Shown here in pieces: positions 1,794 to 24,104 of a stretch of 64,000 nt of DNA (position 1 is its first letter; every line of letters begins with the position of its first letter). This stretch comes from Bacillota bacterium (GTDB lineage Bacteria > Bacillota > Clostridia > Lachnospirales > CAG-274): NCBI GenBank assembly GCA_017460805.1, contig JAFUAF010000061.1, forward strand, positions 62,001 to 126,000. Direction: 5' to 3'. Made by a program: the position numbers and the translations under genes. The notes below the pieces were generated by a model. It made no database searches and was not told the DNA's origin. It saw nothing but the letters and a program-made list of their open reading frames with translations.

Positions 1794-1815
1794 TTTGTTA
1801 ATTTGCATAAAATGA

Positions 1816-3526: not shown

Positions 3527-3537
3527 ATATGCACAAG

Positions 3538-3572
3538 ATAATAGGGGCTTTTCGGCCTCTATTATTTTTTTA
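3538..3572 (+). terminator. Rho-independent terminator after the EAL gene
   Basis: An 11-pair stem (ATAATAGGGGC with GGCCTCTATTAT, one wobble) is followed by a run of seven T. Confidence 0.88.
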
Positions 3573-3593
3573 CAAAAATCCATAAAATTAACC

Positions 3594-3622
3594 TTGATTA
3601 TTGTTGTAAAATTAGTTATAAT
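3594..3622 (+). promoter_or_regulatory. Promoter of the aryl/acyl-CoA operon
   Basis: TTGATT at 3594-3599 and TATAAT at 3617-3622, with a 17-base spacer, lie 58 bases before the ligase start codon. Confidence 0.75.
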
Positions 3623-3680
3623 GTAAGTTGAGTTTATGCGGCTGTACAAAACCGCGAAATATGGAAGGAGATTTTATTGT

Positions 3681-5327: not shown

Positions 5328-5386
5328 GAGTATTTCGAGATGTGTGTGAAACAAAGGGAAAAACTTTATTTTAAGGAGAAAAAGAA

Positions 5387-7132: not shown

Positions 7133-7707
7133 TGCAGACAGTTAATATTATGATAGTAGGTGTCGGCGGACAGGGTTCTCTGCTTGCCAGCAAACTTCTC
7201 GGCCATGTTGTAATGACAAAGGGCTATGATGTAAAAGTGTCGGAAGTACACGGTATGAGCCAGCGAGGCGGAAGTGTTGTAACTTACGTTCGTTTTGGCG
7301 ATAAGGTGTATTCTCCCGTTATCGACAAGGGCGAAGCCGATTACATTATCTCGTTTGAGGTGCTTGAAGCGGCTCGTTATCTTCCTTTCCTTAAAAAAGG
7401 CGGAAAAATTATCGTAAACGCACAGGAGATAGACCCCATGCCCGTTATCACGGGTGCTGCGCAGTATCCCGAAAATCTGCTTGACAAAATGTCGGCAGCA
7501 GGTGCTGATGTAAGCGCTATGGACGCTCTTTCACTTGCAAACGAGGCGGGCAGTCCTAAAGCCGCAAATATTGCATTAATGGGAAGATTTTCCAAATTCT
7601 TTGGCGACATTACGGAGGAAGAATGGCTTAATTCGCTTGAAGCCTGCGTACCGCCCAAGTTCTTGGAATTAAATAAAAAAGCATTTTACTTAGGAAGAAA
7701 TTCCTAA
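7129..7707 (+). CDS. iorB: Indolepyruvate:ferredoxin oxidoreductase, beta subunit
   Basis: The small gamma-type subunit partnering IorA, 192 residues. It shows the GVGGQGSLLASKLLG nucleotide-like loop at the N-terminus and SEVHGMSQRGGSVVTYVRFG, both diagnostic of the pyruvate ferredoxin oxidoreductase gamma family. The start is either ATG 7129 or ATG 7132, both overlapping the iorA stop, so translation is coupled. A 2-oxoacid reductase needs both subunits, and the pairing makes the assignment firm. Confidence 0.95.
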   Translation: MMQTVNIMIVGVGGQGSLLASKLLGHVVMTKGYDVKVSEVHGMSQRGGSVVTYVRFGDKVYSPVIDKGEADYIISFEVLEAARYLPFLKKGGKIIVNAQEIDPMPVITGAAQYPENLLDKMSAAGADVSAMDALSLANEAGSPKAANIALMGRFSKFFGDITEEEWLNSLEACVPPKFLELNKKAFYLGRNS

Positions 7708-7725
7708 AACCACAGGAGAAAAGAT

Positions 7726-9045: not shown

Positions 9046-9860
9046 TAATAGATTTTCATACACATATTTTCCCCGAAAAGATTGCGGAAAGAAGTATAAG
9101 TTTTCTATCGGCAAAAAGCGGTGTAAAAAACAATATTGACGGCACGGCGGAGGGACTTGTAAAAAGTATGGCGGACAGCGGTGTAGACCTGTCTGTTATA
9201 CTTCCCGTTGCCACAAAGCCGCAGCAATTTGACTCCATAAATCGTTATGCCTGTGAGATAAATGAAAAATACGAGGGCAAATTACTCTCATTCGGCGGTA
9301 TACATCCGCTTGACGAGGATTATAAAGCGCATTTAAGACAGATAAAAAATTCCGGACTTCTCGGCATAAAGCTTCATCCCGACTATCAGGATGCTTTTAT
9401 TGACGACAAAGGCTGCAAACGTATTATTTATGAGGCTTCTTCTTTGGGACTGATAACGGTTTTACACGCAGGACGTGACATAGGCTACGGCGATCCCGTG
9501 CATTGCCCGCCCGAAAAGTCGCTTGCGGTCATAAATGAGATAAAGCCCGAAAAACTTGTACTTGCGCACCTTGGCGGCTGGGAACAGTGGGATGCTGTGG
9601 CAGAACTTATCTGCGGCGAAAATGTCTGGCTCGATACGGCTTTTTGTCTTGAATATATAAAGACGGAAAGTTTCTATGAAATACTTGAAAAACACGGCTA
9701 TGACCGCATACTTTTTGCAACAGACAGTCCATGGAGCCCGCAAAAGGGATATATAGACAAAATAACGGCAATGCTGCCCGAAAAAAGCATAAGGGATGCT
9801 GTAATGGGCGGCAATGCAGGGAGACTTTTATATGGAGAGAAAGGTCAAAAGGGTCAGTGA
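9042..9860 (+). CDS. Metal-dependent amidohydrolase (amidohydrolase_2 family)
   Basis: A 272-residue TIM-barrel metal enzyme of the ACMSD-like amidohydrolase_2 family, which hydrolyses or decarboxylates small ring or acid substrates. Metal ligands are visible: the HxH pair at residues 6 and 8 (DFHTHIFP), KLHPDYQ, a histidine in VLHAGRD, another in LAHLGGWEQWD, and the terminal aspartate in FATDSPWSP. It overlaps paaK by 4 bases, so it belongs to the same operon. No specific substrate can be deduced; being in this operon makes an aromatic intermediate plausible. Confidence 0.82.
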   Translation: MIIDFHTHIFPEKIAERSISFLSAKSGVKNNIDGTAEGLVKSMADSGVDLSVILPVATKPQQFDSINRYACEINEKYEGKLLSFGGIHPLDEDYKAHLRQIKNSGLLGIKLHPDYQDAFIDDKGCKRIIYEASSLGLITVLHAGRDIGYGDPVHCPPEKSLAVINEIKPEKLVLAHLGGWEQWDAVAELICGENVWLDTAFCLEYIKTESFYEILEKHGYDRILFATDSPWSPQKGYIDKITAMLPEKSIRDAVMGGNAGRLLYGEKGQKGQ

Positions 9861-10314
9861 CTCTCTGACAGAATGTGTCAGGCTTGTAAAGCATGAGGAT
9901 ATAAACGGCGGCTCACGTCTTTTCGGCGGCAGACTGATGCAATGGATGGACGAAGCAGCGGGTATATGCGCCATGCGTCACAGCGGCGGCATAATAACAA
10001 CAGCTGCTGTGGATAATCTTCAGTTTAAAAAAGGCGCTTATGTGGGTGATGTTGTAGCACTTGTTGCAAAGATCACCTATGTGGGCAATACATCAATGGA
10101 AGTGCGTGTCGATGTCTACGTCGAGGAACTGAAATCCGGCGAAAGACACGTTATAAACCGCGCATATTTTACCGAGGTATGCGTGACGGAGGACGGAACA
10201 CCCGTCCCCGTACCTTATACCATTGCGCCCGAAAATCCGTCGGAACAGGCGGAATGGGACGGCGCAATAAAACGTATAGCCATGCGCAAAGAAAGGCGCA
10301 GTCAAGGCTTTTAA
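9832..10314 (+). CDS. Hot-dog acyl-CoA thioesterase
   Basis: A 160-residue cytosolic acyl-CoA hydrolase of the YciA/BACH hot-dog type. The diagnostic motif GGRLMQWMDEAAG near residue 28 carries the catalytic-region aspartate, followed by the beta strands VDNLQFKKGAYVGDVVALVAKITYVGNTSMEV. I chose ATG 9832, which has an AGGGAG site 8 bases upstream, giving a 29-base overlap with the amidohydrolase; an in-frame ATG at 9814 would lengthen it by six residues without a better site. As last gene of the CoA operon it could release free acid and CoA from the pathway. Confidence 0.86.
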   Translation: MERKVKRVSDSLTECVRLVKHEDINGGSRLFGGRLMQWMDEAAGICAMRHSGGIITTAAVDNLQFKKGAYVGDVVALVAKITYVGNTSMEVRVDVYVEELKSGERHVINRAYFTEVCVTEDGTPVPVPYTIAPENPSEQAEWDGAIKRIAMRKERRSQGF

Positions 10315-10320
10315 ACGGTT

Positions 10321-10417
10321 TTTACAGCACAGGCTGTAAAGATAAATAACTATAAACGCCGCTTATGCGGTTTGCGCTGTATCCAATAAGGAACGGCAGC
10401 AGAAAGGAAAATCAAAT
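10321..10417 (+). other. Leader with two hairpins before the ECF gene
   Basis: A perfect 8-pair palindrome, TTTACAGC-acag-GCTGTAAA (10321-10340), is followed by a CCGC-ttat-GCGG hairpin (10359-10370). Neither has a clear T run, so I do not call them terminators. No known riboswitch consensus was recognised. They could be transcript processing or regulatory structures. Confidence 0.4.
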
Positions 10418-11059
10418 ATGGAAAAACAACAAAAGGCAAACGTAAGAGACATGGTGGAAGTGGCACTGTTTGCGGCGATAATGCTTGTGTTGGCATTTAC
10501 TCCGCTGGGCTATATTCCTATCACACCTACCATCAACGCAACTACCATGCACATTCCCGTTATACTTGCGGGTATTGTACTCGGCAGAAAAAAAGGCGCG
10601 ATAACAGGCTTTATTTTCGGTCTTACAAGTTTTGCAAAGGCATCGTTTTTTTCACCGAACATCACAAGTTTCCTCTTTACACCCTTTTATCCGGGCGGTA
10701 ATGTACTCAGTCTTGTGATATGCTTTGTACCGAGAATTCTTATCGGTGTTGTTGCCGCACTTGTATTTGAGGGCTTAAGCAAGCTTATCAAGGGCAAAGA
10801 CGGCGATGTGGCTTCACTTGCTATAGCGGGCGTATGCGGCTCGCTTACAAACACTATACTTGTTATGGGTATGGCTTATCTTTTCTTTGCACAGCAGTTT
10901 GCGGACGCGGTAGGCAAAGAAGCAGGCGAAGTGCTCGGTTACATAATTACGGGTGTAGTTGTGGGCAACGGCGTTCCCGAAGCTATTGTTGCAGGTATCA
11001 TTACCGCAGGTGTAGGCAAGGCTCTTCTTGTTGTTAACAGAAAAAGGAATTTACAATGA
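10418..11059 (+). CDS. ECF transporter S component, probably pantothenate
   Basis: A 213-residue integral membrane substrate-binding (S) component of an energy-coupling-factor vitamin transporter, with about six hydrophobic helices. Typical features are the N-terminal VEVALFAAIMLVLAFTPLGYIPI, the HIPVILAGIVLGRKKGAITGFIFGLTS stretch and an ANAxxA-poor first helix as in PanT-like members. It overlaps coaX by four bases (ATGA). Because coaX phosphorylates pantothenate, pantothenate is the likely cargo, by context rather than by binding residues. The shared EcfA/A'/T module is not in this window. Confidence 0.82.
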   Translation: MEKQQKANVRDMVEVALFAAIMLVLAFTPLGYIPITPTINATTMHIPVILAGIVLGRKKGAITGFIFGLTSFAKASFFSPNITSFLFTPFYPGGNVLSLVICFVPRILIGVVAALVFEGLSKLIKGKDGDVASLAIAGVCGSLTNTILVMGMAYLFFAQQFADAVGKEAGEVLGYIITGVVVGNGVPEAIVAGIITAGVGKALLVVNRKRNLQ

Positions 11060-11820
11060 TATTAGCTATAGATATAGGCAACTCCAATATTGTGTTGGGC
11101 GGTATCACCGACGGCATTATAGATTTTATTGCCCGTACATCCACAGACCGTATAAAAACGGCCGATCAGTACGGTATACAGATAAAAAATATACTGGAGC
11201 TTTATAATGTGGATGCAAAAAAAATAGACGGCAGTATTATAGCCTCCGTTGTGCCGCCCGTTATGAATGCCATAAAAGGTGCGGTAGAACTTGTTACGGG
11301 CTGCAAGCCTCTTGTAGTCGGACCGGGCGTAAAAACGGGGCTCAATATCGTTATGGATAACCCGGGTTCTGTGGGTGCGGATCGTATAGTCTGTGCAATA
11401 GCGGGTCTTTCCATGAACAAACCGCCGCTTGTTATGATAGATATGGGTACGGCTACCACTATAGACGTGGTTGACGAAAAGAAAAATTATATAGGCGGCT
11501 GTATTATGCCCGGCCTTCGTTCAAGTCTTGACGCTCTGTCCGAAAAAACGGCTCAGCTGCCCGAAATATCGCTTGAAGCCCCAAAGAATATAATCGGCAA
11601 AAATACTGTCGATTGTATGCGCAGCGGTTTTTTATACGGCTTTGCAAGTATGCTTGACGGCTGTATAGAAAGAGTGGAGGAGCAGCTCGGGCAAAAAGTT
11701 TCCGTTATAATTACGGGAGGACTGAGCAGATTTGTTATGCCTTTATGCAAAAGAAAGATGACCTATGCCGACGATCTTTTGCTGAAAGGCTTATATATCA
11801 TCTATAAAAAGAATATATAA
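11056..11820 (+). CDS. coaX: Type III pantothenate kinase
   Basis: Catalyses the first step of coenzyme A synthesis. The 254-residue protein has the ASKHA-fold motifs of CoaX: LAIDIGNSNIVLGG at the N-terminus, GADRIV, DMGTATTIDVV and IMPGLRSSLDAL, followed by ITGGLSRF. It is translationally coupled to the upstream ECF S component by a 4-base overlap, making a two-gene uptake-and-capture unit. Type III kinases are typically not feedback-inhibited by CoA, so supply may be set by uptake. Confidence 0.95.
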   Translation: MILAIDIGNSNIVLGGITDGIIDFIARTSTDRIKTADQYGIQIKNILELYNVDAKKIDGSIIASVVPPVMNAIKGAVELVTGCKPLVVGPGVKTGLNIVMDNPGSVGADRIVCAIAGLSMNKPPLVMIDMGTATTIDVVDEKKNYIGGCIMPGLRSSLDALSEKTAQLPEISLEAPKNIIGKNTVDCMRSGFLYGFASMLDGCIERVEEQLGQKVSVIITGGLSRFVMPLCKRKMTYADDLLLKGLYIIYKKNI

Positions 11821-11824
11821 TTAT

Positions 11825-11856
11825 TAAAAGGATATCGTTTTCGGTATCCTTTTTTA
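11825..11856 (+). terminator. Terminator after coaX
   Basis: AAAAGGATA(tc)-gtttt-(cgg)TATCCTTTTTT forms a stem with a T-rich 3' tail just after the coaX stop. Confidence 0.85.
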
Positions 11857-11991
11857 TTGCATTTAAGCACTTTAATTTTACACAGAAGTTACCAATGTTA
11901 CAGTTTTGTTACACATAAATTTAACAATCCGCTGTTTAAAAGGGCTTTGGCGGGTTGTTATTTTATTAACCAAAAATTAAAATTTTAGGGC

Positions 11992-12021
11992 TTGACAATA
12001 CTATATATAGAGTTGTAAAAT
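11992..12021 (+). promoter_or_regulatory. Promoter of nrdD
   Basis: TTGACA at 11992-11997 and TAAAAT at 12016-12021, spacer 18. It lies about 210 bases before the nrdD start codon, leaving a long leader. The first NrdR-like box covers the spacer. Confidence 0.78.
11995..12016 (+). promoter_or_regulatory. NrdR-like box 1
   Basis: An AT-rich palindrome with core ACTATATATAGAGT, resembling the NrdR box consensus (ACACTATATATAGTGT type). It occupies the spacer between the -35 and -10 elements of the nrdD promoter, so repressor binding would block RNA polymerase. Confidence 0.72.
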
Positions 12022-12028
12022 AACATAA

Positions 12029-12046
12029 GAACTAAATATAGTTGTG
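12029..12046 (+). promoter_or_regulatory. NrdR-like box 2
   Basis: A second, slightly weaker match (ACTAAATATAGTTGTG) whose centre lies about 31 bases, or three helical turns, from box 1. Paired boxes at this spacing are the known arrangement for the ribonucleotide reductase repressor NrdR. Confidence 0.7.
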
Positions 12047-12233
12047 GACAGGAGCGCGCTGTCTGCTGTACATATACACAGTAAAATGCCGCCTTGGATA
12101 TGTTGTCTATGCCTTTCGGTGTAACAGGCAGTCCCGGGAGACGAAAAATAAGGGGAAATATTACCATTATAATATATTTTAATTGTAAAGTCTTTTTTTT
12201 GATGCAAAAACAAAGACTTGGGAGGATTTTTTT
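12047..12233 (+). other. Structured 5' leader of nrdD, no gene
   Basis: About 190 bases without an ORF. Potential hairpins include GGACAG-gagcgcg-CTGTCT, TGCCT-(11 nt)-AGGCA nested in GTCT/AGAC around 12100-12142, and AAGTCTTT (12188-12195) paired with AAAGACTT (12212-12219), the last ending directly at the GGGAGG ribosome site (12220-12225). No known riboswitch consensus was recognised. The last hairpin could affect ribosome access. Confidence 0.45.
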
Positions 12234-14402
12234 ATGGAAAGCGAAGTAAAAAGATATATAATCAAGAAAGACAACACTCTTGAATTATATGACAATACGA
12301 AAATAATCGCGGCTATCACTAAATCTGCAAGCCGCGTTATGTATACATTTACTCAGGAAGAATATCAGCAGGTATGTGATTGGGTAGAGAGCCGAATAGA
12401 AAAAGAGGGTCTTACCGAAATACCCATCCAGACAATGCACAACCTTGTAGAGAGCGCACTTGAAGCCATTGAGCCCCGTGTTGCAAAAAGCTACAAGGAC
12501 TACAGAAACTACAAAAAGGACTTTGTGCATATGCTTGATGACGTATATCAGAAAGCACAGTCCGTTATGTATATAGGCGATAAGGAGAATTCAAACACCG
12601 ACTCGGCGCTTGTTGCGACAAAGAGAAGCCTTATATACAATCATCTTAATAAAGAGCTTTATCAGAAATTCTTTTTGACTACCAACGAAAAACAGGCGTG
12701 CAAGGACGGATATATCTATATCCATGATATGTCGGCAAGGCGTGATACAATGAACTGCTGTCTGTTTGACATGGGCAATGTTTTAAAGGGCGGCTTTGAA
12801 ATGGGTAATCTTTGGTATAACGAGCCAAAGACACTTGCAGTCGCTTTTGATGTTATAGGAGATGTTGTTTTATCTACGGCAAGCCAGCAGTACGGCGGTT
12901 TTACCGTACCCGAGATAGACAAGATACTCGAACCCTATGCCGAAAAATCCTATAAGAAATACTGCGACGAGCTTCGCAGTTATATGGAATTTGCAAAGCA
13001 GGGCGAAGCTTTGACACAGGCTGACGAGGACTATATCTCCGAAAATGCAAAAAAACGTGTTAAACGTGATTTTGAGCAGGGTTTCCAAGGCCTTGAATAT
13101 AAGCTTAATTCCGTTGGTTCATCCCGCGGCGATTATCCGTTTATTACCATAACACTCGGCCTTGCACAGAGCGAGTTCGGTAAAATGGCTTCTATCACCG
13201 CACTTGAGGTACACCGCGGCGGACAGGGCAAAAAAGAGAACAAAAAACCCGTTCTTTTCCCTAAGATCGTATTTTTGTATGATGAGGAACTTCACGGTGA
13301 AGGAAAGCCTCTTTACGATGTTTTTGAGGCAGGTGTGGAGTGCTCCGCTCATACAATGTACCCCGACTGGTTAAGTCTTTCGGGCGACAGCTATGTAGCC
13401 GAAGCTTATCAGAAATATGGTGTTGTCATAAGTCCCATGGGCTGCCGCGCCTTCCTTTCGCTTTGGTTTGAACGCGGCGGCATGAAGCCTGCGGACGAAA
13501 ACGACAAGGCGATCACGGTAGGCCGTTTCAATATGGGTGCTATAAGCCTGCATCTTCCTATGATATTGGCTAAAGCACGCTCCGAAAGCCGTGATTTCTA
13601 TGAAGTGCTGGACTATTACCTTGAAATGATAAGAGGCCTGCACAAGCGTACTATCGAATATCTCGGCGAAATGAAAGCCAGCACAAACCCTATGGCATAC
13701 TGCGAGGGTGGTTTCTACGGCGGGCATCTTAAACCGAATGATAAGATAAAACCCCTTTTAAAGAGTGCTACTATAAGCTTTGGCATTACGGCTCTTAACG
13801 AGCTTCAGGAGCTTTATAACCACAAATCACTTGTGGAAGACGGTGCATTTGCACTTGAAGTTATGGACTACATCAACAAAAAAGTTGATCAGTATAAAAA
13901 AGAAGACGGCATTTTATATGCACTTTACGGCACACCCGCCGAGAGCCTCTGCGGTTTGCAGGTAAAGCAGTTCAGAAAGAAATACGGTATCGTTGAGAAC
14001 GTATCCGACAGAGAATATGTTTCCAACAGTTTCCATTGTCATGTAAGCGAAAACATATCGCCGATCCAGAAGCAAAATCTTGAAAAACGTTTCTGGAACC
14101 TTATGAACGGCGGCAAGATACAGTATGTAAAATATCCTATAGACTATAATAAAGGCGCGATCGTTTCCCTTATACACCGCGCTATGGATATGGGATTTTA
14201 TGAGGGCGTAAACCTCAGCCTTTCGTACTGCGACAACTGCGGACATCAGGAACTTGAAATGGATGTCTGTCCTAAGTGCGGCAGCCGCAATCTTACAAAA
14301 ATAGACCGCATGAACGGCTATTTAAGCTATTCACGCGTTCATGGCGATACACGCCTTAACGATGCAAAAATGGCGGAGATCGCAGATAGGGTGAGCATGT
14401 AA
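12234..14402 (+). CDS. nrdD: Anaerobic (class III) ribonucleoside-triphosphate reductase
   Basis: An oxygen-sensitive glycyl-radical enzyme that reduces ribonucleotides for DNA synthesis. The 722 residues begin with an ATP-cone allosteric domain (about 5-95), followed by the reductase barrel including SPMGCRAFLS with an active-site cysteine, a zinc site CDNCG...CPKCG near the C-terminus, and the radical loop RMNGYLSYSR with the radical glycine at residue 695. ATG 12234 follows a strong GGGAGG site. The stop overlaps the nrdG start by one base (TAATG). The NrdR-like boxes upstream suggest repression when dNTPs are plentiful. It marks an anaerobic lifestyle. Confidence 0.97.
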   Translation: MESEVKRYIIKKDNTLELYDNTKIIAAITKSASRVMYTFTQEEYQQVCDWVESRIEKEGLTEIPIQTMHNLVESALEAIEPRVAKSYKDYRNYKKDFVHMLDDVYQKAQSVMYIGDKENSNTDSALVATKRSLIYNHLNKELYQKFFLTTNEKQACKDGYIYIHDMSARRDTMNCCLFDMGNVLKGGFEMGNLWYNEPKTLAVAFDVIGDVVLSTASQQYGGFTVPEIDKILEPYAEKSYKKYCDELRSYMEFAKQGEALTQADEDYISENAKKRVKRDFEQGFQGLEYKLNSVGSSRGDYPFITITLGLAQSEFGKMASITALEVHRGGQGKKENKKPVLFPKIVFLYDEELHGEGKPLYDVFEAGVECSAHTMYPDWLSLSGDSYVAEAYQKYGVVISPMGCRAFLSLWFERGGMKPADENDKAITVGRFNMGAISLHLPMILAKARSESRDFYEVLDYYLEMIRGLHKRTIEYLGEMKASTNPMAYCEGGFYGGHLKPNDKIKPLLKSATISFGITALNELQELYNHKSLVEDGAFALEVMDYINKKVDQYKKEDGILYALYGTPAESLCGLQVKQFRKKYGIVENVSDREYVSNSFHCHVSENISPIQKQNLEKRFWNLMNGGKIQYVKYPIDYNKGAIVSLIHRAMDMGFYEGVNLSLSYCDNCGHQELEMDVCPKCGSRNLTKIDRMNGYLSYSRVHGDTRLNDAKMAEIADRVSM

Positions 14403-15526: not shown

Positions 15527-16882
15527 ATGAAACTTGTATATGATGTCTATGACAAACCAAAAGGCTTACAGCTTATATTTCTTGCCTTGCAGCAAATGCT
15601 TGCGATACTTGCGGCAACATTGGCTGTACCTATGATAGTCGGCAACGGTCTGACACCCGCTTCGGCAATGTTTGGCGCGGGCGTTGGAACACTTGTTTAT
15701 ATACTTGCAACAAAAAAGAAAAGCCCTGTGTTTCTGGGCTCGTCATTCGCTTTTATAGGTTCTATGAGCGCGGCATTTGCGGGTGCATCAACAATGTCGC
15801 TGGGGATGCTCGGTATAATTATCGGTGCGTTTTCGGCGGGGCTTGTTTATCTTATTATTGCGGTCATAGTCAAAAAAGTAGGTACAAAGTGGGTGGACAG
15901 GCTTATGCCGCCTGTTGTTATAGGTCCCACGGTCTCCATTATCGGGCTTTCACTTGCGGGGAATGCCGTAAGTGACCTGCAAAGCAGCGGTGTACCGAAT
16001 GCTCCCGTATCACAGTATATTTCTATTGTCTGCGGTCTTATTACGCTTATTGTAACAATGTGTTTTTCCGTTTACGGCAAAAAATTTACTAAACTTATTC
16101 CATTTATATTGGGTATAGCAGCGGGTTATTTTTTTGCGGCAATATTTACTGCCATTGGTTTTGCAACAAAAACCGATGAATTTAAAATTATAGATTTTTC
16201 GGTTTTTGCGCAGAATATGATGCCGAAAGGACATATCGGTATCGAAAGTTTTGTATCGCTGCCCGATTTTGTGTTTACCCATGCAGCCAAGGGCTTTAAA
16301 CATATATATCCCGCATACTTTGCTACCGTGCTTGTGGCTTATATACCTGTGGCACTTGTCGTTTTTGCCGAACATATAGCGGACCATAAAAATCTTTCGT
16401 CTGTCATCGGCCGCGACCTTTTAAAAGACCCGGGGCTTTCGGCGACCCTTACGGGCGACGGTCTCGGTTCTGCGATAGGTGCGTTTTTCGGCGGCTGTCC
16501 CAATACGACTTACGGCGAGTCCGTGGGTTGTGTGGCGATAACGGGCAATGCTTCGACCATAACCATTGCGGCGGCTTCTGTGGGCTGTATAATGCTGTCG
16601 TTTTTTACTCCGTTTATATCCTTTGTGCAGTCTATCCCGTCATGTGTTATGGGCGGTATATGTATAGCTTTGTACGGTTTTATTGCGGTTTCGGGCTTTA
16701 AAATGATACAAAAAGTCGATCTTGACGACCATAAAAATCTTTTTACCGTCGCTGTAATACTTATCTGCGGTATAGGCGGTTTCAGCATGGATTTCGGTGC
16801 AATAAAAATAACAGAGGTAGCATCGGCGCTTATACTCGGTATGATAACAAATAAGCTGCTCACGCGTAAAGAAATGCTTTAA
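15527..16882 (+). CDS. uraA: Uracil permease (NCS2 family)
   Basis: A 451-residue transporter with about 12-14 hydrophobic helices of the nucleobase-cation symporter 2 family, bringing uracil across the membrane. The uracil-type signature GGCPNTTYGESVG, with preceding TGDGLGSAIGAFF, separates it from xanthine permeases. I chose ATG 15527 because it follows a CGGAGGG site; an ATG at 15419 in frame would add 36 residues that run through the preceding terminator. Its stop overlaps the stop of the convergent gene on the other strand by four bases, with no terminator between. Confidence 0.91.
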   Translation: MKLVYDVYDKPKGLQLIFLALQQMLAILAATLAVPMIVGNGLTPASAMFGAGVGTLVYILATKKKSPVFLGSSFAFIGSMSAAFAGASTMSLGMLGIIIGAFSAGLVYLIIAVIVKKVGTKWVDRLMPPVVIGPTVSIIGLSLAGNAVSDLQSSGVPNAPVSQYISIVCGLITLIVTMCFSVYGKKFTKLIPFILGIAAGYFFAAIFTAIGFATKTDEFKIIDFSVFAQNMMPKGHIGIESFVSLPDFVFTHAAKGFKHIYPAYFATVLVAYIPVALVVFAEHIADHKNLSSVIGRDLLKDPGLSATLTGDGLGSAIGAFFGGCPNTTYGESVGCVAITGNASTITIAAASVGCIMLSFFTPFISFVQSIPSCVMGGICIALYGFIAVSGFKMIQKVDLDDHKNLFTVAVILICGIGGFSMDFGAIKITEVASALILGMITNKLLTRKEML

Positions 16883-17880
16883 ATATGTTTTTTCAAAAGC
16901 GCATAGCCGTATCTTTTTGTGACAAGTTCCCCGTAATAAAGTGATTTTTGCCCGTGGATAAGTGCGCCGACAGAAAGTCGATTTTCCTGCATATTGCGCA
17001 TTATCTCTGCAAGCGCGCTTCCGAGACCTTTGTGCAAAGGGTCAACGCCAAGATACATAAATATAAGTCTTTTTGGGTCTTTTCTTGTCTTTAAAAAGTC
17101 GAAAAGACCCTTTGTTTTACTGTAATCGGGAAAGGAAACAAGAAAAGCCGCAAATTTTCCGTCCTTGTAAACAAGTAAGACCCGTTTTAAATTCAGTATT
17201 TTTTTCAGAGGCATATACAGTTTTAAGAATTCGGCTTCGGTTATTTTTTTATACTCGGGGAAATCCGAATATAGCTTGCTTAAAAGTTTGTATATCTCGC
17301 ACAGTTGTCTTTTAAAGCCGAAAAATGTCATGTTAGCGAAGATAAAGCCGTTATTTTTAAAGTATTCAAGTCTTGCGGCACATTTTTTATCCCGCATATC
17401 GGGTACTTTATAGATGTTTGAATGATATTCTTCAAAGACCTCAAAGCCGCTTTCAAACCATAAACGTGGGTAATAGTGCGGGTTATAGGGTTCGCCTGTG
17501 TATGTATCGTTAAAATTATCAAGTTTTATGCGGCTTCCGAGCCAGAATGAACAGTTGTAAGGACCGATAAGCTCCGTTATTCCGATATTCTTTGCATATT
17601 CCCGAACTTTCTCAAATAAAAGCTTTGCCGTTTTTGAATTGTCAAGGCTCTCAAAATATCCGATATATCCTTTTTCTTCGCCTTTGTAATGAGTAAATAT
17701 GCAGCGGGAATACACCTTGCCCGTTTCATCGCATACCATAAAAGGCACAGCATCAAAATATCCGCTTAAAATATGTTTGCCCGCAAGGATCTGCTTTTCC
17801 GTCCTTTTATCACGCGAAAGTTTTAAAAACTCCTTTGTTTGTTTTCTTGTCAGATCGTCATATATCAGTTCATATCTCAT
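16879..17880 (-). CDS. YghO / bacterial ceramide-synthase-like GNAT acyltransferase
   Basis: A 333-residue protein without membrane segments. The N-terminal half carries the pattern GYIGYFESLDNS...AREYAKNIGITELIGPYN...EPYNPHYYPRLWFESGF, which I recognise from the YghO/bCerS-like (BcerS-like) family of double GNAT-fold proteins; a Caulobacter member N-acylates sphingoid bases to make ceramide. The C-terminal half has a GNAT acetyl-CoA-site-like VDPLHKGLGSALAEIM. It is the last gene of the lipid operon, overlapping the dikinase gene by 4 bases. An N-acyl transfer to an amine-bearing lipid is a reasonable guess, but no substrate is shown by sequence. No sphinganine-forming palmitoyltransferase lies nearby. 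Confidence 0.7.
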   Translation of the reverse strand: MRYELIYDDLTRKQTKEFLKLSRDKRTEKQILAGKHILSGYFDAVPFMVCDETGKVYSRCIFTHYKGEEKGYIGYFESLDNSKTAKLLFEKVREYAKNIGITELIGPYNCSFWLGSRIKLDNFNDTYTGEPYNPHYYPRLWFESGFEVFEEYHSNIYKVPDMRDKKCAARLEYFKNNGFIFANMTFFGFKRQLCEIYKLLSKLYSDFPEYKKITEAEFLKLYMPLKKILNLKRVLLVYKDGKFAAFLVSFPDYSKTKGLFDFLKTRKDPKRLIFMYLGVDPLHKGLGSALAEIMRNMQENRLSVGALIHGQKSLYYGELVTKRYGYALLKKHI

Positions 17881-19994
17881 AATATCCTTATCCTCCCTTT
17901 GTCTGCGTCAAGCTCGACACACATACCCGTTTTAAGTAGGCGGGAAGCGTTTTTTACATTTACAACGGCGGGCTTTTTCAGTTCACGCGAAATTATTGCC
18001 GTATGACTTAAAAGAGAGCCTCTTTCGGCTATCATGCCTTTGCAGTTTTGTATAATAAATATCCAGCCGGGGTCGGTAAAGCGGGTAACGATAATTTTGC
18101 CGCGGGTATCTGCGTTTTCTGGTCTGTCTATAACAAGGACTTCGCCCGTGACCTTTCCGCCCGAAGTCGGAGTGCCGTAAAGCGTATTTTCCGATACGGA
18201 AACCGAAGCCGAAAAGAAATTCTTTTCCGTTATCTTGTCGGCAAATACAAGCCGCCTGAAATACGGCAGCGCTTCAAGTGCATTGTATTTTGCTTTTCTT
18301 TCGGATAGGGTATTTTTTGTATATTCCTTTGAAAAACTGCTTATATTGCGTATTTCTTTCAAATAAAGATAAAAAATATCTTCTCTTGTTTCTATAATGC
18401 CGCGTTTAACAAATTCTTCACCCGTTTTAAGCATTATTTCGCGCACAAGCCCGAATATCCTGCTGCGGTCAAGACGTGACAGTTCACGGTTTTCTATACC
18501 TTTTACGGCACGTTTTAAAAAGGGAGCAAAGAAATAAGTCTTTTTTGACGGGCTTATATTGCTTGGTTCGTGTGTTTTGACATACGCATCGAGTAATTGC
18601 GGGTCGGTGCGGTATGTGGGAGTTTCAAGCTTTAATTCTCCCGATACCCTGTCGCCGTAAAGGGCGATATAACGCTCTTTTTTTGCCTTGTATTCCCTGC
18701 TTTCAAGCCCGTATTTTTTGTATGTTTTTATAAGAGAGTTAAGCGCAAGTGCGGGCTTCATACTTTCGGGCGAGATCTCGCCGAGGCGCTTCCCTTTGCG
18801 TGAAAGGTGGGTAAAAATAAAGGCATACATGTCGTTGATAAGCGTTATATCCCATACGGACAGTATCTCGGTGGTTATCTTATCATACACGGATAGAGAG
18901 TCTTTGGCCGATTTTATCAGTCTTTGATATTCGGGATATTTTTTATCAAAAAACACTTTGAGTCTCGCCATGTGTTTTGGCGTGGTAAAAAGATAGTACA
19001 TAAAGGACCCGAACATTTTCGCCTTTTGGATAAAATTTGTTTTGATTTTCGGTGCGGAAATATCCTTATTTTCAACACCAAGCATCTCCTGCCATATCTT
19101 AGTTATCCGTTTTGAAAAAGGCAAAAGTGACAAAAACGCATACCAATTAGATATAACATAGTATTCGCGGCCGTTTACGCTTTTTGTCATATTCTTTAAA
19201 TACGGCTGCATTTGCGTTACAAGCCGATCATCCTTTGAAAGACGTTTAAGACAGCCTTCAAAAATTCGGTAATATATCTCATCAACAAAGCTTTGGGTCA
19301 GCGGAAGAGTGATGTCGGGATAGCTTTCGGAAATATTGCTGCTGTCAAGCAAAATTATATTTCGGGACGGAAGAGTGGTTATCGGACGGGCCTGCAATAT
19401 ATACAGAATATCGTCTTTTACGGCAAATTCCATATCAACATAAGTGCCGAATATCTCTTCCGCTTTTTTTGACAGCAAAACTATCTCGTCAAGAAATTTT
19501 TTCGGCGGCAGTTCGTTTCCGCCATACCAAAGACAGTCATCCTTGTTGTAAAAACAGGTGTTTGTTTCCGAACTGTCGTTTACTATTCTATCGCCCGTAC
19601 CTTTGCCGAAAGTTACAGCAATTTCGTTTAAGATGCCCTGCGGGTCGGCTGTAAAAATAACACCCGAAAAATCCGCATTTATCATCTCCTGAATTATAAC
19701 ACAGCCCTTTGTTTGTTTTATTCCCTTTGCTTTGACATAATCGGAGGCATTGTCAAGACTTTTGAATACCTCGCCGACAGCGGAGGGCACATCTTTTCTT
19801 CCGACATTCAAAATCGTTTTGTACTGCCCCGCAAAAGAATGTTCCGCCCCGTCCTCGTTCCCAAATGAAGAACGCACTGCAAAAGTCTCTGCCTTTGAAA
19901 AAGAAAGGGCGATATTATCGCAGCTCTCGACCGTTATAAAAGGTGGTACTTTGAATTTGTTTTGCTGCAATATTCTTAAATTTTCGGCTTTCAT
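17877..19994 (-). CDS. Rifampicin-phosphotransferase-like dikinase (PEP-synthase family), substrate unknown
   Basis: A 705-residue three-part dikinase. Residues 1-215 form the ATP-binding PPDK_N domain (AVRSSFGNEDG, SFAGQYKTIL, SGVIFTADP, YVDMEFAV, LQARPIT). Residues 215-600 match no motif I know and contain basic and hydrophobic stretches. Residues 610-705 form the swivelling phosphohistidine domain, with the catalytic histidine H664 in SLLSHTAIISREL. The PEP/pyruvate barrel that follows this domain in true PEP synthase is absent, so the layout matches rifampicin phosphotransferase, where the middle domain binds the acceptor. Here it sits between UbiA and acyltransferase genes (4-base overlaps both sides), so a lipid acceptor is plausible but unproven. 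Confidence 0.78.
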   Translation of the reverse strand: MKAENLRILQQNKFKVPPFITVESCDNIALSFSKAETFAVRSSFGNEDGAEHSFAGQYKTILNVGRKDVPSAVGEVFKSLDNASDYVKAKGIKQTKGCVIIQEMINADFSGVIFTADPQGILNEIAVTFGKGTGDRIVNDSSETNTCFYNKDDCLWYGGNELPPKKFLDEIVLLSKKAEEIFGTYVDMEFAVKDDILYILQARPITTLPSRNIILLDSSNISESYPDITLPLTQSFVDEIYYRIFEGCLKRLSKDDRLVTQMQPYLKNMTKSVNGREYYVISNWYAFLSLLPFSKRITKIWQEMLGVENKDISAPKIKTNFIQKAKMFGSFMYYLFTTPKHMARLKVFFDKKYPEYQRLIKSAKDSLSVYDKITTEILSVWDITLINDMYAFIFTHLSRKGKRLGEISPESMKPALALNSLIKTYKKYGLESREYKAKKERYIALYGDRVSGELKLETPTYRTDPQLLDAYVKTHEPSNISPSKKTYFFAPFLKRAVKGIENRELSRLDRSRIFGLVREIMLKTGEEFVKRGIIETREDIFYLYLKEIRNISSFSKEYTKNTLSERKAKYNALEALPYFRRLVFADKITEKNFFSASVSVSENTLYGTPTSGGKVTGEVLVIDRPENADTRGKIIVTRFTDPGWIFIIQNCKGMIAERGSLLSHTAIISRELKKPAVVNVKNASRLLKTGMCVELDADKGRIRIL

Positions 19995-20899
19995 ATTCTT
20001 ACCCCCGCTAAGTATGTTGCTACCGTCAGTATCATCAGGCTTTCCTGTATATAAGTGTATTTTTCGACCTTATCCACAAGTTTAAATACCGTGGGGTCTT
20101 TTTTGAATTCGATAAACTTGGCGCTCATCCAAATAACATTTATAAGCAGGGCGATCACCGACAGCTTATTCAGATTCCAAACAAGAATAAAATTTGTGAC
20201 TATATCCACCCAAGTCATGATAAACACAAAATCCACGCTTTTTTTATATCCGAACAGCTTTGAATAGGTCACATATTCCGTTTCGTCCTTCGGCGCGCGT
20301 ATTTTCCTTGACACTTCCCATATAAGTGCGGGGAAATAAAGCGTCATTACCGCAAGGCAGTTTGTCAGGTCGAAAGGCTTTATCGAATATTTGATGACCA
20401 CAAAACTTATTATATAGATGTTCATTATTATCTGTACGGGATTATGGGTCAGCAGTGCAAGCGGAAGAGATTTTTGAATTTTATGCTTTTGGAAAAACCA
20501 TATCGCCATCAGACTGCCGTAGGTGTACAGAATTATGCAGAAAACAAAATTGTTCATAAAAACATAATTAAGCGCAAGTGTAAGAGCGATGAGCAGGGTA
20601 ATAAAAACTGCAAGATCACTTTTTTTGGTACGTCCCGAGGGCAGGGGACGGTGTGCGAACAATCGGCAGTCCAGCTCGTAGTCCTTGAAATCATCGGCGA
20701 TCCTCAGCCAGCACAAAAAGCTGAACACAGTAAACGCGCCGACAAGTTCTCCCGCACCGAGATCGAAAGCTGTTACGCCGTGATTTAAAAGCACAATAAA
20801 GTAAATTTCAAAAAACAGAAGTCCGCCTAAAATAAGTCTCGGGATTATCGGGTACATCTCTTTAAAATAAATATTAAGTCTTTTCAATGAAGCAGTCAT
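19991..20899 (-). CDS. UbiA-family membrane prenyltransferase
   Basis: A 302-residue, roughly eight- to nine-helix membrane protein. The first aspartate-rich motif is ADDFKDYELD (D70, D73, D77 in the DxxDxxxD pattern), followed by HRPLPSGR, which is typical of UbiA. The second motif region reads EVSRKIRAPKDETEYVTYSKLFG, as in a UbiA subfamily distinct from 4-hydroxybenzoate or protoheme transferases. These enzymes transfer a polyprenyl chain to an aromatic ring or to a lipid head group. It sits between psd and the dikinase with 4-base overlaps at both ends. Acceptor and chain length cannot be read from the sequence. Confidence 0.85.
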   Translation of the reverse strand: MTASLKRLNIYFKEMYPIIPRLILGGLLFFEIYFIVLLNHGVTAFDLGAGELVGAFTVFSFLCWLRIADDFKDYELDCRLFAHRPLPSGRTKKSDLAVFITLLIALTLALNYVFMNNFVFCIILYTYGSLMAIWFFQKHKIQKSLPLALLTHNPVQIIMNIYIISFVVIKYSIKPFDLTNCLAVMTLYFPALIWEVSRKIRAPKDETEYVTYSKLFGYKKSVDFVFIMTWVDIVTNFILVWNLNKLSVIALLINVIWMSAKFIEFKKDPTVFKLVDKVEKYTYIQESLMILTVATYLAGVRI

Positions 20900-21714
20900 A
20901 TTCTTTCACCTATCCTTTCTCCGATATGTACACGGGTCTCTATGCCTGCCGCGGAATTTTTCAGTATATCTTCATCGGGTCTTATATTGTTTATAAGAAG
21001 AACGACAGTAGAGCCGCCGTATTCAAAATACCCCTTTTCCTCATATCTCGAAAAAGTTCTTTTGCCGTGGTTGTTTATTTTTCCGATAAGCATTGCGCCG
21101 ATTTCGGTCTGTATTGCCTGTCCAAAATGCTTTGTGTCCATAAGAGTGACAAAACGGCTGTTTTTGCAGTATACACCATCCTCAAATTCTCTTATTGTGT
21201 GAAGCATACCCTTTATTCTTTTTTGAAGAATTGTTCTGCCGTCGTCAAAAAATATATAGCGGTGGCAGTTTTCCACACTAAGTCTGAAAACAAGGGCATA
21301 TTCAAAGTCGGTATTTTTTATGCTCGTCAGTTCGTCAATGCTGTAGACGGAATTTTTTATGTAAAACTTGGTATCATCGGATATTCTGTAAACGCAGAGC
21401 TTTGCATCAGCCGGAGATATAAGTTCATTTTCTTTTGAAGCGGTTTCAAAAGTCAGATTGCGTGTAAAAAAATCATTGAAGCTTTTATATTTCTTTCCGT
21501 CTTTTATGCCGTACAGGGTTTGAAATTTCCTTATTTTGCCCTTGGAAAGAGGGGAAGAGATATAAAGTCCGTATAATTTTGAAAACCACGGCCTTGCAAA
21601 TATTGTTTTAAGCAGTATTCTTCCGATTTTGCTGCCGTATAAAAACTGTAAGACTTCCTGTTTGTATTCGGGCTCATTTACCGAAGTTTTAAGTTTTCTG
21701 TCATAAACAAGCAT
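20896..21714 (-). CDS. psd: Phosphatidylserine decarboxylase proenzyme
   Basis: Converts phosphatidylserine to phosphatidylethanolamine at the membrane. The 272-residue proenzyme keeps the self-cleavage motif GGST with the pyruvoyl-forming serine at S235, LISPADAKL, and ENCHRYIF with its histidine. The N-terminus MLVYDRKLKTS resembles the start of other clostridial Psd proteins, so I keep the ATG at 21714, although it puts the start 37 bases inside the preceding pssA gene. It overlaps UbiA by 4 bases. It should cleave into beta and alpha chains after synthesis. Confidence 0.94.
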   Translation of the reverse strand: MLVYDRKLKTSVNEPEYKQEVLQFLYGSKIGRILLKTIFARPWFSKLYGLYISSPLSKGKIRKFQTLYGIKDGKKYKSFNDFFTRNLTFETASKENELISPADAKLCVYRISDDTKFYIKNSVYSIDELTSIKNTDFEYALVFRLSVENCHRYIFFDDGRTILQKRIKGMLHTIREFEDGVYCKNSRFVTLMDTKHFGQAIQTEIGAMLIGKINNHGKRTFSRYEEKGYFEYGGSTVVLLINNIRPDEDILKNSAAGIETRVHIGERIGERI

Positions 21715-22280
21715 AAAATCACTCCGATCACAGCCGCCGCCGATAGGATAACAAGATACATTTTACCGCGCGGCTTTTTGATTTTTATATCAAGTACGAA
21801 AAATATCGCTAAAATACAGTAAAAAGGGTAAAAAAAATAAAGGCTGTTCATAATTTTTGCAATTATGCAGCATAAAGGCAGTATCAAGGCACTGTATGTT
21901 ACGGGCAGTCCCGTAAAGTATTCTCCGCCGTCATCGGTCATGTCAAACCATGCGAGCCTTGTTATGCAGGCAACGGCGTAGAGCAGGGCAATAACGATAC
22001 TTGCGGGCTTATAAAGCGGCATATTCAAAAGCAGAACACAGGGCAGGGCGGCAAATGAGAACATATCCGCAAGACTGTCTATCTTTCTGCCAAATTGCTT
22101 TTGAAGTTCGTTTCTTTTGCATTTTCTTGCCACAGTACCGTCAAACATATCACATATACCCGCAAAGAGCAGACAAAGCATAGCTGAATATAAATTTGTA
22201 TTGGCAAAGCATATCCCGATCATTGCAAAAAATATGCCCGTATAAGTAAGCAGTACGCTTTTATTGAAACAGCCTATCAT
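21678..22280 (-). CDS. pssA: CDP-diacylglycerol:serine O-phosphatidyltransferase
   Basis: A 200-residue membrane enzyme of the CDP-alcohol phosphatidyltransferase family. The signature is D44-x2-D47-G48-x2-A51-R52, followed after 11 residues by G64-x3-D68-x3-D72, the longer spacing common in clostridial PssA proteins. About six hydrophobic helices follow. The adjoining psd makes serine the likely alcohol. It overlaps the CarS-like gene upstream by 4 bases and psd downstream by 37. If CarS supplies the CDP-lipid, the lipid part may not be ordinary diacylglycerol. Confidence 0.88.
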   Translation of the reverse strand: MIGCFNKSVLLTYTGIFFAMIGICFANTNLYSAMLCLLFAGICDMFDGTVARKCKRNELQKQFGRKIDSLADMFSFAALPCVLLLNMPLYKPASIVIALLYAVACITRLAWFDMTDDGGEYFTGLPVTYSALILPLCCIIAKIMNSLYFFYPFYCILAIFFVLDIKIKKPRGKMYLVILSAAAVIGVILCLFMTENLKLR

Positions 22281-22837
22281 AAATTCCGCCTCACTTTCAG
22301 TTTAAGAAGTGTAAGATTTACAAAAAGATGCGTCAGCCCGCCAAGCAGGATATATGGCAGGAATAAATGCCATTTATCCGATAATATGCAGATAACAAGT
22401 GCAATACCCGTTACGGAGTCTATCCTGTCTATGATAAGAAATACGGCTCTCATGTCGCTTTTTATGGTCTTTCCCGCTTCAATACCAAGCCTGCGCTTTA
22501 AAAAGCTGTTCGGCAGTTCAAAAAGCATATACATAAAGCCGAGCAAAGCACCCGCACAAAAATTGAATAAAACCGTGTTTTCATATTTTGTATATATATC
22601 ATTAGGAAGTCCCGCTGCACCGATAAGCACCTGAAAAAGCGAGCAAAAAACTATCATCGACAAAAAGCCCGTTATTGTTTTGTTGTCACCTAAAAGCCGT
22701 TTTCCGTCTTTTAGGCAAAGTCCGCTGTCAAGCGGTTTTCTGTGACTTTTATAAAAGGCGGACTTACAAAACAGCATATTTGCTATGCCGCCGAGGATAA
22801 CGGGCATGATTGTTACAAACATTTTTAAAACAACCAT
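22277..22837 (-). CDS. CarS-like CTP:lipid-phosphate cytidylyltransferase
   Basis: A 186-residue, five- to six-helix membrane protein that resembles CDP-archaeol synthase (CarS). Supporting motifs are the N-terminal PVILGGIANM, KPLDSGLCLKDGKRLLGDNKT (PLD near residue 35, GDNKT at 50-54), and FLKRRLGIEAGK with the later DRIDSVTG. CarS attaches CMP to a lipid phosphate made of isoprenoid ethers in archaea; bacterial homologues exist but few have a known substrate. It sits just before pssA, so it would provide the CDP-lipid used there. The start overlaps the kinase gene by 13 bases, with a GAAGGAG site about 13 bases upstream. Confidence 0.82.
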   Translation of the reverse strand: MVVLKMFVTIMPVILGGIANMLFCKSAFYKSHRKPLDSGLCLKDGKRLLGDNKTITGFLSMIVFCSLFQVLIGAAGLPNDIYTKYENTVLFNFCAGALLGFMYMLFELPNSFLKRRLGIEAGKTIKSDMRAVFLIIDRIDSVTGIALVICILSDKWHLFLPYILLGGLTHLFVNLTLLKLKVRRNL

Positions 22838-23178
22838 TTCAGCACCATAGCTCCTTCACCGATATAAAAGGCAAGTCCCCACCATAAGACAGCAGCTGCC
22901 GCCATATCTTTAAGTGCGCCGATAATTTTATTGAACTCGGGGCAGACATAATCCGCCATATATTCCATTGCCGTATTCATGCTTTCCGCAGAGCAAACGC
23001 CTGCGACCGTTATCATATAGTACAGATGGCAGTAAACGGGGACTTTTATCATAAGATTTATCAAAAGAGCCGCCGCAAAATTCATCAGATAGTATTTAAA
23101 ATTTTTTTCGTGAGAAAAGGCGTATAGAATACCTTTGAATGCCGTTTTGAAACTGGCGGCAAATGTTGCGTTTTTCAT
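22825..23178 (-). CDS. dgkA: Diacylglycerol / undecaprenol kinase
   Basis: A small three-helix membrane kinase (117 residues) of the DagK family. The signature is SAESMNTAMEYMADYV, matching the ExxNTAIExxxD core, followed by ALKDMAAAAVL. In Firmicutes such enzymes phosphorylate undecaprenol or diacylglycerol. I chose ATG 23178, 8 bases after AAGGGG; an in-frame GTG at 23187 overlaps that site. It lies a few bases after the small anti-sigma-like gene. In this operon it could provide the lipid phosphate for CarS, although the acceptor is unknown. Confidence 0.88.
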   Translation of the reverse strand: MKNATFAASFKTAFKGILYAFSHEKNFKYYLMNFAAALLINLMIKVPVYCHLYYMITVAGVCSAESMNTAMEYMADYVCPEFNKIIGALKDMAAAAVLWWGLAFYIGEGAMVLKWLF

Positions 23179-23190
23179 ATTTATCACCCC

Positions 23191-23424
23191 TTATAAAAAT
23201 TTGCTTTTAAGTGAAACAAGGTCTATGCCCAAAAATCTTACGGCCGCAAATACAAACAGAAAACAAGCGGCTACAGATGCAAACATCTTTATAACAGAAG
23301 ACCTGCGGTTTTTCTTTTTAACAAGCTCGCGGCTGAACTCCAGTATCTCGGTTATTATTTTTTCGTCCGATTCTTTGCTCGGCCTTAAAAGGTCAAAAGC
23401 TTCGGCTATTCTTTTATCTTTCAT
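23191..23424 (-). CDS. Putative minimal anti-sigma factor
   Basis: A 77-residue protein with a charged cytoplasmic N-terminus (about 1-43), one hydrophobic helix (about 44-65, IKMFASVAACFLFVFAAV) and a short tail. The helical N-terminus MKDKRIAEAFDLLRPS resembles the sigma-binding segment of anti-sigma factors that follow ECF sigma genes in Clostridia, but the usual extracellular sensor domain is missing. It overlaps the sigma gene by 4 bases. The role is inferred from position and shape; there is no zinc-binding motif to confirm it. Confidence 0.65.
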   Translation of the reverse strand: MKDKRIAEAFDLLRPSKESDEKIITEILEFSRELVKKKNRRSSVIKMFASVAACFLFVFAAVRFLGIDLVSLKSKFL

Positions 23425-23921
23425 TCAAAATCACCTCCAAGTTTTTCTTTAAGCAGTTTACGCGCGTCATGCAGATAATTTCTGATGGTAGACTGCGGAC
23501 GGAAGAGGGCTTTTGCTATCTCGACAGAGGAATAGCCCTCATAATAATACATATAGACAACATTTTTTAATTTTTCGGGCAGTTCTTTTACGGCGTTTAA
23601 AACTTCGTCTGTTTTCTGCGGCGGTGCTTCGGCTTCGCTTGCTTCTTCAAGGCTTGTGCGTTTCCGCCACCAGTTTCTGAGCACGTTTTTGCATATATTT
23701 GATGCTGTGCGTATAAGCCATGCCTTTTCGTGTTCTTCGTTTTTGAAAACGGGCTCTGTTTTTATCATTTGGATAAAAGTGTCGGAAACTGCATCCTCGG
23801 TGTCTGCCGTGTTTTTCATATATGTAAAGCACACACGCCAGACCGTCAGTTTGTTGCGCTCGTATATCTCTTTTATTTTTTCTTCCGTCAGGATATTTTT
23901 TGATATAATATTTTTCATCAT
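23421..23921 (-). CDS. ECF-type RNA polymerase sigma factor
   Basis: A 166-residue alternative sigma factor. Region 2 (about 20-85) contains FTYMKNTADTEDAVSDTFIQM and the promoter-melting segment AWLIRTASNICKNVLR; region 4 (about 105-160) has LPEKLKNVVYMYYYEGYSSVEIAKAL with a helix-turn-helix. A GGAGGG site precedes the start. It heads nine overlapping minus-strand genes, so it probably controls its own operon, as ECF factors generally do. The signal is unknown. Confidence 0.93.
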   Translation of the reverse strand: MMKNIISKNILTEEKIKEIYERNKLTVWRVCFTYMKNTADTEDAVSDTFIQMIKTEPVFKNEEHEKAWLIRTASNICKNVLRNWWRKRTSLEEASEAEAPPQKTDEVLNAVKELPEKLKNVVYMYYYEGYSSVEIAKALFRPQSTIRNYLHDARKLLKEKLGGDFE

Positions 23922-23936: not shown

Positions 23937-23967
23937 CTTATAATACAATCGGGGATGTCAAAGTGTC
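23937..23967 (-). promoter_or_regulatory. Possible promoter of the sigma/lipid operon
   Basis: Reading the minus strand, GACACTTTGACATCCCCG is followed by TATTATAAG at 23945-23937, just ahead of the ribosome site. TTGACA is only 10 bases from TATTAT, too close for a housekeeping promoter; GACACT with a 16-base spacer would suit an ECF promoter better. Low certainty. Confidence 0.35.
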
Positions 23968-24104
23968 GGAAAAATTTTCAAATTTTTTAAAAATTTTTTA
24001 TATTTTTAATTATACTTGAATTTAAGCTGTTTTGTAAAGCATTCATTCAATATTCATAAAATCGTAAGAATTTGCATTTTATTGAAAAAATTGTAACAAA
24101 GTAC

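Follow-up and report, generated by a model that had tools for sequence, protein, structure and literature searches.

The described systems closest to the locus reported here are the archaeal glycerophospholipid pathway, which comprises digeranylgeranylglyceryl phosphate (DGGGP) synthase, the O-prenylation enzyme of archaea, together with CarS, a serine-type CDP-alcohol enzyme and a decarboxylase; bacterial phosphatidylethanolamine (PE) synthesis by PssA and Psd; betaine-lipid synthesis by BtaA and BtaB; and bacterial sphingolipid synthesis. In E. coli BL21, yghO (ECD_02850) is the counterpart of Caulobacter CC_1154, a presumptive ceramide N-acyltransferase (PMC9386255). We describe a nine-gene operon on the minus strand, at 16879-23921 of a 64,000-nucleotide stretch of the genome of a Bacillota bacterium from gut or rumen (contig JAFUAF010000061.1; the whole stretch is called the window, and operon positions are given in its coordinates). 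We estimate a probability of about one half that it is a biosynthetic cluster, built of two modules, whose product is a membrane lipid not described before. The genes of the operon and a candidate promoter are the following.

16879-17880, minus strand: YghO-like tandem-GNAT acyltransferase, assigned to the bCerS/CC_1154/YghO superfamily (hhalign, predicted structure)
17877-19994, minus strand: RPH-like dikinase with a PPDK_N ATP-binding domain, an acceptor-binding domain and a C-terminal domain bearing the catalytic His (Pfam, profile match)
19991-20899, minus strand: UbiA-superfamily prenyltransferase, PRK13592 family (NCBIfam, 414 bits)
20896-21714, minus strand: Psd, phosphatidylserine decarboxylase family (Pfam, 112.8 bits)
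21678-22280, minus strand: PssA, serine-type CDP-alcohol phosphatidyltransferase (Pfam, NCBIfam)
22277-22837, minus strand: CarS-like CTP:lipid-phosphate cytidylyltransferase (Pfam PF01864, 47.3 bits)
22825-23187, minus strand: DagK-family lipid-alcohol kinase (Pfam PF01219, 76.2 bits)
23191-23424, minus strand: small protein of 77 amino acids, predicted to have a single membrane helix and presumed to be an anti-sigma factor (position)
23421-23921, minus strand: sigma factor of extracytoplasmic function (ECF) type (Pfam Sigma70_r2 44 bits, r4_2 46 bits)
23940-23969, minus strand: candidate promoter CCGACA-N18-TATTAT upstream of the sigma gene (consensus match only)

A core and an optional head-group module

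The gene set is a real cluster, more than a chance neighbourhood. A scan with the window UbiA, using one genome per species, gave 163 relatives, and the best 80 of these loci, from which all locus counts are taken, carry an RPH gene next to or within 8 kb of the UbiA gene without exception (80/80); they belong to Lachnospiraceae, Oscillospiraceae/Ruminococcus and related Clostridia. Where flanks are ample (60 loci), the YghO-like gene is found in 57, CarS in 49 and PssA-Psd in 30; the complete set of UbiA, DagK, CarS, PssA, Psd, RPH and YghO is present in 22, the same set without PssA-Psd in 14, and just UbiA, RPH and YghO plus an AMP-forming ligase in 8. Such an acyl ligase joins the core in roughly one locus out of four. 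The core genes share one direction, their gaps being short or overlapping, and the related loci keep no transporter, regulator or carrier protein alongside them. UbiA is the most conserved gene of the cluster, with a mean pairwise identity of 73% versus 41-56% for the neighbour genes; gene-to-gene pairwise identities correlate over the loci (rho 0.5-0.95, shared ancestry uncorrected), consistent with joint inheritance. This survey bears out the proposal of the initial annotation that the operon is a dedicated lipid cluster, whose gene set, the sigma pair excepted, recurs in other Clostridia. In Lachnoanaerobaculum (L037, L044-L046, L048 and L049) the order is rearranged to RPH-YghO-DagK-CarS-PssA-Psd-UbiA, and the clusters are flanked by an apparent DegT aminotransferase and an apparent UDP-galactopyranose mutase.

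A division of the system into a core (UbiA, RPH, the YghO-like protein and, in some loci, the acyl ligase) and an optional DagK-CarS(-PssA-Psd) head-group module is well supported. Of the 12 carriers with no CarS at the locus none has the gene elsewhere in its genome, and DagK is absent from both genomes tested among them; because carriers exist whose genomes have neither, the core acts without CarS and DagK. Over 11 genomes, DagK, CarS and PssA occur together in nine and are all missing in two. In the nine, DagK is a single copy whose place matches the cluster (the cluster DagK is the only one of the window genome); PssA-type enzymes are likewise present in the nine genomes and absent from the other two, which have PgsA only (G406 and G407). 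CdsA is encoded away from the cluster in 11/11 genomes and PgsA also lies elsewhere, thus CarS is not needed for ordinary CDP-diacylglycerol. Ruminococcus genomes have a PssA-like gene with no Psd nearby. As the core occurs without DagK, CarS, PssA and Psd, it is most likely that UbiA, RPH and YghO make a lipid alcohol. The same occurrence speaks against the earlier view of UbiA and YghO as tailoring enzymes of a finished phospholipid, and RPH and DagK, which had been offered as alternatives for a single step, are not interchangeable, since every locus has RPH but not every one has DagK.

Among 146 genomes of the window's order 7 have a match; these include both genomes that share the window's genus, whereas the 12 that represent its family's other genera have none; it is because of this patchiness that a phylum-wide NF010118 search yielded just five weak matches. 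In the UbiA tree the window's genus nests inside a mostly Lachnospiraceae clade, which, together with the patchy distribution, suggests lateral transfer.

The place and strand of the nine open reading frames (ORFs) agree with the initial annotation, as does the overlap of nearly all genes; its list of overlaps contained one "4" too many and missed a gap. From the YghO-like end the overlaps are 4, 4, 4, 37, 4 and 13 bases, DagK and the small gene are separated by 3 bases, and the small gene overlaps the sigma gene by 4. Of the family names given there, ECF sigma, DagK, CarS-like, PssA, Psd and the dikinase are backed by Pfam above cut-offs; UbiA (24.9 bits, under the cut-off of 34.2), the YghO-like protein (weak GNAT matches) and the small gene are not.

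The small gene has no family match in Pfam or NCBIfam, its homologs hold the same position in the window's two nearest relatives (L008 and L009), and its product is presumed to be an anti-sigma factor from its position and its 4-base overlap with the sigma gene. The sigma/anti-sigma pair stands at the locus only in the window, L008 and L009, other sigma matches near related loci being distant ECF genes. A promoter-like block, CCGACA-N18-TATTATAAGTGAAA, has a -10 part, ATTGTATTATAAGTGAAA, that is identical across the three sigma-bearing loci; the block at 23940-23969 may be a promoter of the sigma factor itself. In the window's genus the pair probably drives the operon. Sigma-led control as a general trait was rejected, and since the pair is local to one genus, induction of all the genes by an envelope signal, as first proposed, does not characterise the system as a whole.

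Core enzymes, head groups and the proposed chemistry

UbiA scores 414 bits against NCBIfam PRK13592 (cut-off 443). Its best solved relative is the archaeal DGGGP synthase 6m31 (E 1.3e-5 with a single sequence, 4.8e-4 with a profile), which also comes first by fold, with Foldseek and with VIA-align (Z 17.9, rmsd 3.8, 269 aligned residues, 15% identity); other UbiA structures reach Z 16.4 or lower, so that DGGGP synthase leads 4od4 by just 1.5 Z. The UbiA fold and the first Asp-rich motif are present, and D69, D73 and D77 do not vary even among homologs of about 20% identity.

The dikinase shows the three-domain RPH architecture, with Pfam scores of 111 and 71 bits and a profile match of E 3e-74 to the RPH-type structure 5fbs, which we take to be Listeria RPH, the entry title reading "phosphoenolpyruvate synthase". 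Neither the catalytic His664 nor the conserved ATP-grasp residues vary among 19 sequences. The NCBIfam rifampin RPH equivalog was not reached (172 bits, cut-off 999), and a role as a rifampin-resistance gene was rejected by this score and by gene context. Each of two clusters (L086 and L106) carries a pair of distinct RPH-like dikinase genes.

The YghO-like protein has no BLASTP match to YghO, its assignment being at profile level: by hhalign it matches E. coli YghO with 98.9% (E 3.4e-17) and a set of five YghO/bCerS homologs of plasmid and E. coli origin with 99.85% (E 1.5e-30, 346 columns, 14% identity). The predicted structure (pLDDT 92.3) has tandem GNATs as its best matches (Z 17.8). The protein is thus placed, at superfamily level, among the putative bCerS/YghO N-acyltransferases; the YghO-like label of the initial annotation stands, to which membership in the ceramide-synthase family, not mentioned there, is added. 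E. coli K-12 yghO (L090, 5044-6216) is named a "putative DNA-binding transcriptional regulator" in RefSeq, whereas the BL21 counterpart has been described as the ceramide N-acyltransferase; the RefSeq name is a probable misannotation. In K-12 the start of the gene is overlapped by an IS5 copy. A ligase gene of the window (3636-5327) was set aside as the missing acyl ligase: it has 24% identity and adjoins an apparent indolepyruvate oxidoreductase. The 3636-7132 region, with an acyl/aryl-CoA ligase and an apparent subunit of that oxidoreductase, likely serves to ferment aromatic amino acids and has no relation to the operon.

In the head-group module, the CarS-like protein exceeds the PF01864 cut-off of 22 bits and has a profile match to CDP-archaeol synthase 5guf (E 2.5e-9). 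The NCBIfam scores of PssA are near equal for bacterial PssA (80.0 bits) and archaetidylserine synthase (79.7 bits); the window genome has two CDP-OH enzymes, this PssA and one PgsA-like protein. Psd, the only copy in the genome, has a GGST processing motif by reading.

Distant UbiA homologs, with 17-26% overall identity, lie in two genomes of the window's order but of a different Clostridia family (L103 and L104) and on one alphaproteobacterial plasmid (L107).

L107, Roseinatronobacter plasmid NZ_CP121116, 122000-136713: cluster at 6208-14192
L104 (genome G441), 1-9511: UbiA, condensation-domain acyltransferase, HAD-like ORF, RPH, further genes, DUF3419

L103 and L107 share the order UbiA, RPH, DUF3419, membrane protein, acyltransferase-like protein (GNAT-like in L107) and AMP-binding ligase; the L103 membrane protein (5234-6556) has no Pfam match, and a by-eye likeness to dolichol/phytol kinase was not used. 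In L104 a PapA5/condensation-domain acyltransferase stands in for YghO, and one might speculate that its phosphatase-like ORF removes the RPH-added phosphate before the BtaA step. All three have a match to BtaA (PF11899/DUF3419), a Pfam family to which the nine proteins of the window operon show no match. DUF3419 is the BtaA family; a Rhizobium member directly precedes an S-adenosylmethionine (SAM) methyltransferase gene, the arrangement known for btaA and btaB. Because DUF3419 accompanies UbiA-RPH in the distant clusters, a second, chemically different head-group enzyme appears to attach to the same core and to cap the lipid alcohol there.

From the enzyme families we infer a core that most likely makes a lipid alcohol bearing a prenyl and an acyl chain, which the head module would convert to a phosphoserine/phosphoethanolamine lipid. 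(i) The RPH-like dikinase would phosphorylate a small backbone or an intermediate on one of its hydroxyls, converting ATP to AMP and Pi. (ii) UbiA would transfer an isoprenoid to a hydroxyl of the phosphorylated acceptor, in the manner of DGGGP synthase; a C15 chain from farnesyl diphosphate is probable because the genome has one short-chain prenyl synthase. (iii) The YghO-like enzyme would add a fatty acyl chain, most likely on an amine, the site used by its ceramide-synthase relatives, the putative core product being a lipid with one prenyl chain, one acyl chain and a free hydroxyl. (iv) DagK would phosphorylate this hydroxyl, CarS would form the CDP-lipid, PssA would add serine and Psd would decarboxylate it; in the distant clusters the BtaA-family enzyme would cap the same kind of alcohol instead. 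The order from alcohol through phosphate, CDP-lipid and phosphoserine to phosphoethanolamine, already proposed in the initial annotation, fits the DagK-CarS-PssA-Psd module. Taken as a whole, that interpretation is supported in part.

Several observations weigh against this scheme. In UbiA the second Asp-rich motif, DxxxD, is replaced by the invariant E195, R198, K199 and E206, and with such a non-canonical motif prenyl diphosphate may not be the donor. The acyl ligase is missing at most loci, with no close copy found in those genomes, so that the acyl group may come from acyl-ACP or general acyl-CoA. To match the BtaA family is no proof of a lipid alcohol acceptor, and the PssA-Psd pair, which lies elsewhere in three genomes (those of L008, L009 and Oribacterium), may represent plain PE synthesis.

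The product of the operon is possibly a new lipid class. A fuller version, in which gut, rumen and oral Clostridia combine an isoprenoid from an archaeal-type UbiA and a ceramide-synthase-type acyl chain on one RPH-primed backbone, with phosphoserine/phosphoethanolamine added through an archaeal-type CarS or with a betaine-type head, is tentative, and the odds are against its holding in every part. Among the carriers are human and ruminant commensals that can be cultured (Roseburia inulinivorans, which has the full cluster, Ruminococcus flavefaciens, Oribacterium and Lachnoanaerobaculum), in which ordinary lipidomics could reveal a new lipid class. If correct, the proposal gives a role to a gene pair now annotated as "prenyltransferase" and "phosphoenolpyruvate synthase", explains bacterial CarS genes, and means that phosphate and betaine heads are swapped on a shared nonstandard backbone. 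Gut-bacterial lipids can act on the host, and the structures of the carriers' lipids bear on host-microbe signalling.

Alternative readings of the cluster

The main rival is ordinary phosphatidylserine (PS) and PE synthesis with a separate core: DagK would recycle diacylglycerol, CarS would be a second CDP-diacylglycerol synthase, PssA and Psd would yield normal PE, and the core would modify that PE or another common lipid (e.g. to N-acyl-PE). The cluster PssA and Psd are the genome's sole serine-type synthase and sole Psd, and in the three genomes named above the pair is placed off-cluster like a housekeeping pair. The core is found, however, in G406 and G407, where a PgsA-type enzyme only is present and no PS or PE can be made by this route, and in genomes without CarS or DagK; the core substrate therefore cannot be PE there. 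As every one of the 11 genomes has CdsA, no role remains for CarS in plain PE synthesis, and in the distant clusters the partner of the core is BtaA instead of PE genes. We judge this explanation rather improbable as a whole. The PssA-Psd pair, whose Psd is the only one of the genome and which lies off-cluster in sister genomes, may serve only ordinary PE synthesis, an outcome that the initial annotation had named as refuting its idea.

The core could also make a specialised metabolite (a meroterpenoid, a signal or a detoxified drug) beside lipid genes, RPH inactivating or activating a small molecule. RPH relatives inactivate rifamycins or act as prodigiosin-synthesis ligases (NCBIfam matches), and one lies in an apparent Streptomyces secondary-metabolite cluster. 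Set against this are the score far below the rifampin equivalog cut-off, the constant company of lipid-head enzymes of two unrelated kinds, and the lack of any transporter, regulator or carrier protein conserved with the core, which make a specialised metabolite unlikely.

Still less probable is an archaeal-type isoprenoid diether phospholipid made by UbiA as DGGGP synthase, CarS, archaetidylserine synthase and the decarboxylase. UbiA, CarS, PssA and Psd do correspond to the downstream enzymes of the archaeal route, the nearest solved relatives of UbiA and CarS are archaeal lipid enzymes, and PssA ties with archaetidylserine synthase. Geranylgeranylglyceryl phosphate (GGGP) synthase (PcrB family) was found neither in the window genome nor in 8 of 10 others, the remaining two giving marginal partial matches; each of the 11 genomes has a single short-chain prenyl synthase, and RPH and YghO are left unexplained. 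With GGGP synthase lacking in nearly all genomes, the whole archaeal diether pathway was rejected.

A sphingolipid pathway, with the YghO-like protein as ceramide synthase and DagK as ceramide kinase, draws on the superfamily of the former and on the DagK gene beside bCerS in a Klebsiella sphingolipid cluster, and is hardly credible, as no serine palmitoyltransferase-like gene is found in 12/13 cluster genomes and the remaining one, G407, gives a marginal match of 25%; it was rejected on this ground. CerR is not conserved beside the core in the related loci (whole genomes were not searched). YghO homologs on plasmids sit in clusters of serine palmitoyltransferase (Spt), acyl carrier protein (ACP), reductase and acyl ligase; one on a Klebsiella michiganensis plasmid (L093, 2155-8701) comprises Spt, ACP, a reductase, an acyl-AMP ligase and bCerS, and its DagK gene, adjoining bCerS, is a candidate ceramide kinase.

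Comparison with described systems

No described pathway with this gene set turned up in the searched literature, which included few subscription journals. With the sphingolipid clusters of Caulobacter (CC_1162-1165 and CC_1154) and E. coli BL21 (ECD_02850-02853) the window-type cluster shares an N-acyltransferase of the YghO/bCerS superfamily (PMC9386255). The bacterial sphingolipid clusters also share with it the acyl-activating ligase of some loci and, in Klebsiella, an accompanying DagK; however, Spt is missing from its genomes and UbiA and RPH have no counterpart in theirs. From the archaeal pathway, with which it has a UbiA nearest to DGGGP synthase, CarS, a serine-type CDP-alcohol enzyme and a decarboxylase in common, it differs by the absence of GGGP synthase, the addition of the RPH dikinase and the acyltransferase, and the presence of bacterial CdsA. 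Bacterial PE synthesis is represented by PssA and Psd, the genome's only serine/decarboxylase pair, but CarS and DagK are extra, as is the core that is found without them. RPH and the PigC/RedH ligases are three-domain dikinases with a catalytic His like that of the window, which is shorter (705 amino acids), scores far under their equivalog cut-offs and always adjoins UbiA. The BtaA/BtaB route resembles the distant core clusters through their DUF3419 enzyme, whereas the window operon uses phosphate head-group enzymes and no BtaB methyltransferase is seen beside the core. The cluster borrows steps that resemble the sphingolipid and the archaeal ether-lipid routes and belongs to neither.

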